IMG/VR virus record: IMGVR_UViG_3300025646_000412
Coordinates: 1-22,675 of that record
From: a virus
DNA length: 22,675 bases
Strand: one strand, 5' to 3'
The position numbers and the translations under genes are program-made. Position 1 is the stretch's first letter; each line of letters opens with the position of its first letter. Shown piece after piece: positions 547 to 1,754 of the stretch. The notes under the pieces were generated by a model that worked only from the letters and a program-made list of their open reading frames with translations, searched no databases and was not told the DNA's origin.

Positions 547-1005
547 TTACATTTTGCTATACACAGTTTTTCCGTTTACTCTTGTTGCCCTCAATATATT
601 TCGTCTGTTTTCTTCAGGAGATATATAACTGACGTGTACCCAATCGGGGTTTGTATCATTACCGAATTCCCATATAATTTGATCAAAGGGCAGATGGGTG
701 ATAATATGATCAAACATTTCGGCATTGGTTTTATGACCGTATACGTCATCCAGATCCATTGCACACCCGTCGCAGTGTTGTGATGTTGAACTTCCTCCAA
801 TAGCCTTATTTAATTCTTCGCTTCGGAAAAACGAATTTATTTTTACAGGACCACCAACCCATTTTCTAAGCGGCTCAAAGATTTCAGTTGCAATAGTTAT
901 CATATTGAACATTTGATCTTCTGTAGGTATATTTTCAATACCTAGTCTTTTGGCCGTATAAGAGTGCGTAGCCTCATTATAGGTTACGTGTTCTGTTAAC
1001 TTCAT
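547..1005 (-). CDS. M15-family peptidoglycan peptidase (putative endolysin)
   Basis: A 152-residue protein with the zinc-ligand pattern of the M15 D-Ala-D-Ala peptidase-like family (M15_3 type). It has SQHCDGCAMD at residues 75-84 (His77 and Asp84 as ligands) and DWVHVSY at 121-127 (His124 as third ligand). The SFFRSEELN stretch near residue 58 also fits the family. Enzymes of this fold cut peptide stems or cross-links of the cell wall. No signal peptide or membrane segment is seen, so release through a holin is expected. It is the last gene of the late unit. Its ATG overlaps the stop of the upstream thioredoxin-fold gene by one base (TAATG), which suggests coupled translation. Length is normal for a single-domain M15 enzyme. 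The fold is nearly certain; the role as the phage endolysin is inferred from position next to holin-like genes. A virion-borne role is less likely. Confidence 0.87.
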   Translation of the reverse strand: MKLTEHVTYNEATHSYTAKRLGIENIPTEDQMFNMITIATEIFEPLRKWVGGPVKINSFFRSEELNKAIGGSSTSQHCDGCAMDLDDVYGHKTNAEMFDHIITHLPFDQIIWEFGNDTNPDWVHVSYISPEENRRNILRATRVNGKTVYSKM

Positions 1006-1319
1006 TATTTACTATTTTCGAAGAGTGCTTTTAAAATTTCTTCTTCTGTTATATTTAATTTAAAACTTAAATCAGCATTCCATTGGCGTACTGGCGTACT
1101 ATTTTTGTATAAAATAATTACAGGAACTACTTTAATTTTACTTTTAACACTTTCCGGCTGATCTTCTAAATACGCGAATTGTGTAGCTACTCCTGAAACG
1201 TGTGGTATTTTAACCGTATGAGCAGAATTCCATTTTGCATTAATTTGTACAATAGTAAATTTCTGCGCAAAAGTGTTTAATGTAAAAAATAATAAAATTA
1301 AACAAAGTAAATTTTTCAT
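1005..1319 (-). CDS. Exported thioredoxin-fold protein lacking the CxxC active site
   Basis: A 104-residue protein. Residues 1-18 form a signal peptide (two Lys/Asn residues, LLCLILLFF core, then NTFA before Gln19), of the flavobacterial type with no lipobox. The mature part resembles a minimal thioredoxin fold: strand FTIVQINAKW (21-30), the active-site turn, a central helix, then KVVPVIILYKN (63-73) with Pro66 where thioredoxins have the cis-proline, and a C-terminal helix EEEILKALFENS. Where thioredoxin has WCGPC this protein has WNSAH (30-34), so both redox cysteines are gone and disulfide chemistry is not expected. It lies between a membrane coiled-coil gene and the M15 peptidase, overlapping the first by ATGA and the second by TAATG, so a lysis or envelope role is plausible. 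The fold call comes from pattern matching only. The signal peptide is clear; the function is unknown. Confidence 0.68.
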   Translation of the reverse strand: MKNLLCLILLFFTLNTFAQKFTIVQINAKWNSAHTVKIPHVSGVATQFAYLEDQPESVKSKIKVVPVIILYKNSTPVRQWNADLSFKLNITEEEILKALFENSK

Positions 1320-1600
1320 TTGTTTTGAATTATTTCGTATAATTTAGAATCTATTTTGTCAAGCTTTTCACTATTTTCTTGTACTTTTTGTTGTGTATTC
1401 ATAATAGTTTCTCGAATAAGTTGATCTTTTAAATCATACTCTGTACGAGATACCTCGGGTGCCGGTAACTGTTTGGCTTCCTCTATATCTCTTTGTAGGG
1501 CAAACCACATACCAATAAACGATGACAATACCGCTACTATGGCTATAATAGTTTTTAAGTCAAAAGTTACTTGTGTATTTTCATCAATTTTAGTTGCCAT
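1316..1600 (-). CDS. Small single-TM protein with C-terminal coiled coil (lysis-cassette membrane protein, spanin- or holin-like)
   Basis: The preferred start is the ATG at 1598-1600, giving 94 residues. An in-frame TTG at 1622-1624 would add eight residues (MKFIRRRK) but lies inside the upstream small gene and is a weaker start. The ATG is preceded by a purine run, AAGAAGAAGAAAA. Residues 17-35 (TIIAIVAVLSSFIGMWFAL) form one membrane span. Residues 36-94 are highly charged and heptad-like (EEAKQ...QQKVQENSEKLDKIDSKLYEI), predicting a coiled coil. This topology is compatible with an inner-membrane spanin-like partner or a class III-type holin; no homology decides between them. It overlaps the holin-like gene by 11 bases upstream and the thioredoxin-fold gene by 4 bases (ATGA) downstream, so all three should be co-translated. 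Confidence 0.7.
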   Translation of the reverse strand: MATKIDENTQVTFDLKTIIAIVAVLSSFIGMWFALQRDIEEAKQLPAPEVSRTEYDLKDQLIRETIMNTQQKVQENSEKLDKIDSKLYEIIQNK

Positions 1601-1754
1601 TTTTCTTCTTCTTATAAATTTCAACCCACTTTGTGATTGTATATCCTATTGACGCTAACAACAGGACAATTTTAAGAGTCATTTCAATATTAGATAAAGA
1701 TATAATAAGACTTAGCGAATTGACTAGATATAGTTTTAAGTCTTGCAAATCCAT
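1590..1754 (-). CDS. 54-aa holin-like small membrane protein
   Basis: Found by direct translation: ATG at 1752-1754, TAA at 1590-1592. The protein starts MDLQDLKLYLVNSLSLIISL, has two hydrophobic stretches (about residues 8-20, amphipathic, and 25-41, KIVLLLASIGYTI) and ends in a basic tail, EIYKKKKNGN. Small size, one or two membrane helices and a Lys-rich cytoplasmic-type C-terminus are typical of phage holins. The position just upstream of the membrane coiled-coil, exported thioredoxin-fold and M15 genes supports this. It would permeabilise the inner membrane so that the signal-less M15 enzyme reaches the wall. The frame is clean over its length, and the stop overlaps the next start by 11 bases as in other coupled phage genes. 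I know no specific family name for it; the holin role is inference. Confidence 0.7.
   Translation of the reverse strand: MDLQDLKLYLVNSLSLIISLSNIEMTLKIVLLLASIGYTITKWVEIYKKKKNGN

Follow-up and report, generated by a model that had tools for sequence, protein, structure and literature searches.

Two overlapping genes in the lysis cassette of an uncultured phage encode proteins that form one unit: TMCC, a small membrane protein with a probable coiled coil, and TRX, an exported protein with a thioredoxin fold. Dozens of uncultured phage groups share these two genes as a conserved module, which belongs to the lysis region. It is also a concrete, testable candidate for the step that disrupts the outer membrane. 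Judging from position, pairing, topology and the lack of any lipobox ORF, we consider it an even question whether TMCC and TRX perform this step as a spanin-like pair without a lipoprotein. If they do, many uncultured Bacteroidetes phages use the pair and would be classed as spanin-less by present surveys; the lipobox is what spanin searches rely on, and a system that lacks a lipoprotein would escape them.

Layout of the cassette, its holin candidate and its endolysin

The window, by which we mean the whole stretch of DNA analysed, is the entire IMG/VR record IMGVR_UViG_3300025646_000412 (22,675 bases), a genome fragment. Because its portal protein is 42-51% identical to the portals of elemoviruses, Maribacter phage Panino and MW202828 (whose sizes are 60-77 kb), we take it to be probably part of a larger podovirus genome, from a phage that infects a Bacteroidetes-type host. 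Along the minus strand, portal, capsid and tail-type genes, a gene for a 2,171-aa protein and genes for small basic proteins lead up to the cassette, which then runs H54 (54 aa), TMCC (94 aa), TRX (104 aa) and M15 (152 aa). A hairpin at 523-542 separates it from a ribonucleotide reductase gene that is convergent on it. The features are as follows.

1590-1754, minus strand: H54, 54-aa membrane protein, probable holin (ATG start; 45 distinct homologues)
1316-1600, minus strand: TMCC, 94-aa i-spanin-like protein (ATG start; a TTG at 1624 may give a longer form)
1493-1552, minus strand: predicted transmembrane segment of TMCC, residues 17-36 (hydropathy)
1005-1319, minus strand: TRX, 104-aa exported thioredoxin-fold pseudo-enzyme (model, structure alignment, profile match, conservation)
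1266-1319, minus strand: predicted Sec/SPI signal peptide of TRX, cleavage before Q19 (Gln there in 37/46 clusters; Q-rule)
547-1005, minus strand: M15, 152-aa M15 peptidase endolysin (Pfam PF08291, PHROG 894)
523-542, no strand assigned: bidirectional intrinsic-terminator-like hairpin closing the cassette, between M15 and the convergent gene

The small basic proteins encoded at 1786-2176, one with DUF5872 and one of 45 aa, recur around the cassette in many relatives; the 45-aa protein resembles a segment of cyanophage proteins, one of which is annotated as a virion protein.

An earlier note on this DNA had described four minus-strand ORFs joined by 11-base, ATGA and TAATG overlaps, and all of these are in place: H54 and TMCC share 11 bases (1590-1600), TMCC and TRX share four (ATGA, 1316-1319), and TRX and M15 share one (TAATG, 1005). 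The same note had singled out the 54-aa frame as a hidden gene, an exported thioredoxin-fold protein and an M15 peptidase; the gene is real and conserved, and both protein assignments agree with the family, signal and fold evidence given below. It had suggested looking for the four-gene order in related contigs, and the order H54-TMCC-TRX-(lipoprotein)-M15 indeed recurs in three further TRX clusters (the L169, L188 and L198 groups), which makes four with the window.

A profile search with H54 recovered 77 loci encoding 45 distinct proteins of 46-64 aa, mostly on other contigs. The next labelled gene downstream of these 45 homologues is M15 in 24 cases and TMCC in 18, usually with an overlap. 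H54 is 52% identical over its full length (100% coverage) to the homologue of a cultured elemovirus, gp36, and in 68 elemovirus records the H54 homologue runs into the beginning of a D-Ala-D-Ala carboxypeptidase gene. We read H54 as a holin because it has a hydrophobic core (residues ~10-43) and a basic C-terminal tail (KKKKNGN); together with its small size and its coupling to an endolysin gene, this is the layout of a holin. The role is quite likely rather than certain, since the matches to PHROG 920 'holin' are weak (E 0.049 for the window protein; E 0.0073 for the best match of any member, a relative); no Pfam match was found.

M15 matches Peptidase_M15_3 (PF08291) with an E-value of 5.4e-15 and 55.9 bits against a curated cut-off of 23.2, and the PHROG 894 endolysin family with an E-value of 1.4e-27, matches by which we assign it as a Peptidase_M15_3 endolysin. 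It keeps the H, D, H ligand positions as H77, D84 and H124, which probably make up the metal site. It has no signal sequence, as expected if its release depends on a holin.

TMCC and TRX form one unit in the lysis region

The fold of TRX is supported by a structure model (pLDDT 90) that matches thioredoxins in structural alignment with Z scores of up to 10.5 (Foldseek, VIA-align), and by a profile of 29 members that matches PDB thioredoxins with an E-value of 1.5e-5. The WCxxC motif of thioredoxins aligns to WNxxN/H in TRX (H34 in the window), with no Cys at these positions in the 46 clusters, and P66 aligns with the thioredoxin cis-proline in the profile alignment. Among the most strongly conserved positions of mature TRX across the 46 clusters are W30, P66, A28, A82, N31 and N34. 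In thioredoxins, three loops form the peptide-binding groove, and the conserved TRX loops W30-N31, V65-P66 and A82 are the corresponding ones. TRX keeps the groove loops and has lost the redox chemistry; an active thiol oxidoreductase is ruled out by the missing CxxC.

Signal peptides and transmembrane segments were called by hydropathy and pattern rules. The predicted signal peptide of TRX is followed by position 19, a Gln in 37 of the 46 clusters, and this Sec/SPI signal conforms to the Bacteroidetes Q-rule, by which Gln follows the cleavage site in signal peptidase I substrates (PMC5837995). The sole cysteine of the window protein, C6, lies inside the signal peptide. Nearly all members are without a lipobox and none is conserved over the 46 clusters; we rejected TRX as an o-spanin with an unusual lipobox, as a signal Cys occurs by chance in a few members (L178, L159) and the pattern is not conserved. 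In species genomes, TRX was found only on two MAG contigs, apparently of phage origin.

TMCC has a single N-terminal transmembrane segment (residues 17-36 by hydropathy), invariant residues K16 and I39, and no cysteine. Its model (pLDDT 72) consists of helices 15-44 and 52-93, the domain after the membrane segment being probably a coiled coil, and its charges suggest an N-in, C-out orientation. A small inner-membrane protein with an N-terminal TMD and a helical periplasmic domain has the layout of an i-spanin.

In 45 of 46 TRX clusters the gene immediately before TRX is TMCC; the 46th cluster sits at a contig edge. The spacing ranges from -14 to +5 bases and is exactly -4, the ATGA overlap, in 29 clusters. 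As loci were gathered by TRX or M15 similarity, adjacency to TMCC was not a selection criterion. Two arrangements depart from a single pair: TMCC-TRX-TMCC2, with two divergent TMCC copies flanking TRX in three clusters (L096, L105/L107, L115), and two divergent pairs in L099 (1604-2271 and 4696-5321), separated by about 3 kb with the M15 gene between them. TMCC also occurs without TRX, in the order H54-TMCC-M15 in L006 and L008, and as a distant form in G011 and G018.

The pair is closely tied to lysis genes. Within 2 kb of TRX, an M15 peptidase is present in 32 of the 46 clusters and a 3TM holin in 22; with H54 and a 2TM holin-like protein counted as well, 42 clusters have one or more of these genes. 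The order in 22 clusters is TMCC-TRX-(lipoprotein)-M15. One member of the GTA-type 3TM holin matches PHROG 3427 (E 7e-20), while the 2TM protein is holin-like by our own reading. In 17 of 22 long records, M15 or the 3TM holin is no more than 2 kb from the pair, against 2.64 expected (P 2e-12 for random placement within records, uncorrected for relatedness). The M15 scan supplied six of the 22 records; among the other 16, the pair is near in 12. In the remaining 5 of 22 records the pair lies more than 2 kb away, and in G027, G030 and G037 it is 15-34 kb from the endolysin. These distant pairs, as well as the duplicated pairs of L099 and the TMCC-TRX-TMCC arrangements, speak for a non-lysis envelope function, for example superinfection exclusion, merely located among late genes. 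We regard this as very unlikely in view of the strong overall association with lysis genes and the lack of a defence-family match; a search for the pair as a defence system gave no PADLOC match.

A second reading keeps the pair within lysis and has it set the timing, with TRX as a periplasmic sensor or antiholin-like partner (as T4 RI) acting via TMCC on the holin or endolysin. It would suit the tight coupling to holin and endolysin genes, a soluble exported TRX with a preserved peptide groove, and the fact that TMCC has weak, scattered hits among PHROG holin, antiholin and hemolysin families. Those hits, however, may be explained by coiled-coil composition, and the pair co-occurs with two types of M15 and with three holin-like types that are unrelated to each other, which lends no support to a specific holin partner; we consider a timing role quite unlikely.

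Among 50,697 cultured phage records, none matched TMCC or TRX (E 0.01 for the window proteins, E 1 for divergent members), and we found no description of such a pair in the literature on thioredoxins and spanins.

The outer-membrane step and lipoproteins

The earlier note had observed that a lipoprotein outer spanin was absent, which holds: no frame of the window contains a lipobox ORF, and none in the cassette combines a lipobox with a C-terminal TM. Its further suspicion of an unfamiliar outer-membrane component was reasonable, and we infer that the TMCC-TRX pair, and not a gap, is its best reading. What looked to the note like a complete lysis module is a set of four coupled, conserved genes; completeness is another matter, the record being a 22.7-kb fragment and relatives measuring about 60 kb. 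Within the searched data the 54-aa frame is conserved and no holin/spanin pair appears elsewhere.

In the mechanism that we propose, H54 would open the inner membrane as a holin and M15, having no signal peptide, would pass through this opening and cut peptidoglycan peptides, roles suggested by their families. From anatomy and gene pairing, TMCC would provide a helical periplasmic stalk and form one complex with periplasmic TRX, in whose groove a peptide would probably be bound, either from TMCC or from an envelope protein of the host. After removal of the wall by M15, the complex would act like a spanin and disrupt the outer membrane, with soluble, exported TRX taking the outer position in place of a lipoprotein; in some relatives a lipoprotein would be a third part. 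For this explanation as a whole, in which the four genes are the late lysis cassette of a tailed phage that infects a marine host of Bacteroidetes type and TMCC-TRX carries out the outer-membrane step, we see the chances as evenly balanced. That the pair represents a new class of outer-membrane disruption device, an inner-membrane stalk with a soluble redox-dead thioredoxin fold and no outer lipid anchor, is a more tentative proposal, to which we give somewhat less than even weight. Several observations weigh against the outer-membrane role: both window proteins are without an outer-membrane anchor and without periplasmic Cys, TMCC can occur without TRX, the pair is far from the endolysin in some records, and some pair-less records do not carry a spanin in its place.

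The last point concerns 11 records with M15, most also with H54, that have no TMCC-TRX and no recognisable spanin. On the supporting side, one lineage encodes a 149-aa u-spanin-like protein (L064:4668-5117, L067:5652-6101) with lipobox Cys13 and a C-terminal TM that adjoins H54-M15, on contigs where TMCC-TRX was not seen. Because of the 11 records, a pattern in which a u-spanin replaces the pair rests on this one lineage. Strict mutual exclusion between the pair and lipoproteins or u-spanins was rejected, as some pairs adjoin a lipoprotein and many H54-M15 records have neither.

Another possibility is that TMCC-TRX is accessory and that the gene for the true outer-membrane component, an o-spanin or u-spanin, lies in the portion of the genome outside this fragment. 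The fragmentary state of the window leaves room for such a gene, and lipoproteins do occur beside the pair: within 2 kb in 6 of 46 clusters, in the order H54-TMCC-TRX-lipoprotein-M15 in L197, and in L084, the nearest TRX relative, as a gene that shares 4 bases with TRX. In most records of 30-67 kb with TMCC-TRX, however, no long ORF encodes a credible lipoprotein, and we deem this possibility unlikely. About seven credible lipoproteins were found in 1.72 Mb of records, three of which touch TMCC-TRX; lipoproteins in these records, where present, tend to adjoin the pair. Lipoproteins touching the pair suggest a device that reaches outward from the inner membrane and sometimes gains a lipid-anchored part.

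A Tyr/Asn-rich lipoprotein lies beside or near TMCC-TRX at L096:5620-6012, L197:6339-6698, L198:6338-6694, L110:6909-7385 and G008:5966-6337, with the common motif 'HVLAVTxxGDTLxxPxxxIxPxxY'; it is possibly a third component. Near TMCC-TRX and M15 we also noted an exported protein of 360-429 aa, unassigned to a family (L015:3916-4998, L020:1266-2456, L099:2273-3562), which is possibly an outer-membrane protein. In cultured relatives, elemovirus gp32 (L123:5805-6350; 181 aa) has an N-terminal hydrophobic segment and an apparently beta-rich C-terminal end, and could be an unconventional outer-membrane component.

Comparison with known systems

Two-component spanins such as lambda Rz/Rz1, P2 LysB/LysC and T4 PseT.3/PseT.2 resemble TMCC-TRX in several respects. 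Their genes are adjacent and overlapping in the lysis cassette, and the embedded, overlapped or adjacent gene architecture of spanins is also that of the pair. The first protein is small, with an N-terminal TM and a helical periplasmic domain, like TMCC. The summed periplasmic length of TMCC-TRX, about 58+86 residues, falls within the two-component range of 62-300 (PMC6139136). Unlike o-spanins, which are defined as outer-membrane lipoproteins with a lipobox, TRX has a predicted SPI site before Q19, a globular thioredoxin fold and no cysteine in the mature protein. A periplasmic Cys is present in 507 of 528 known two-component pairs, and is thus common but not absolute (PMC6139136); the window pair has none. 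As both lipobox and cysteines are missing, we would not file TMCC-TRX as a two-component spanin, which leaves aside whether it acts as one.

Unimolecular spanins share with TMCC-TRX the host phylum and the presumed step. Those of the T1 gp11 type are annotated in flavophages Ingeline and Nekkels (PMC8776804), a 2025 survey reported only unimolecular spanins in Bacteroidetes phages (PMC12596118), and the u-spanin-like gene of L064/L067 lies near M15. TMCC-TRX differs in consisting of two proteins, neither with a lipobox plus C-terminal TM. Among cultured phages, the gp36-gp35 genes of Flavobacterium phage elemo, in which the H54 homologue overlaps an M15-type D-Ala-D-Ala carboxypeptidase gene, parallel the H54-M15 coupling, with another endolysin subtype and without TMCC-TRX. 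Thioredoxins, finally, share their fold, cis-proline and groove loops with TRX, whereas TRX is exported, has both active-site cysteines replaced and stands in a gene context with a single partner.
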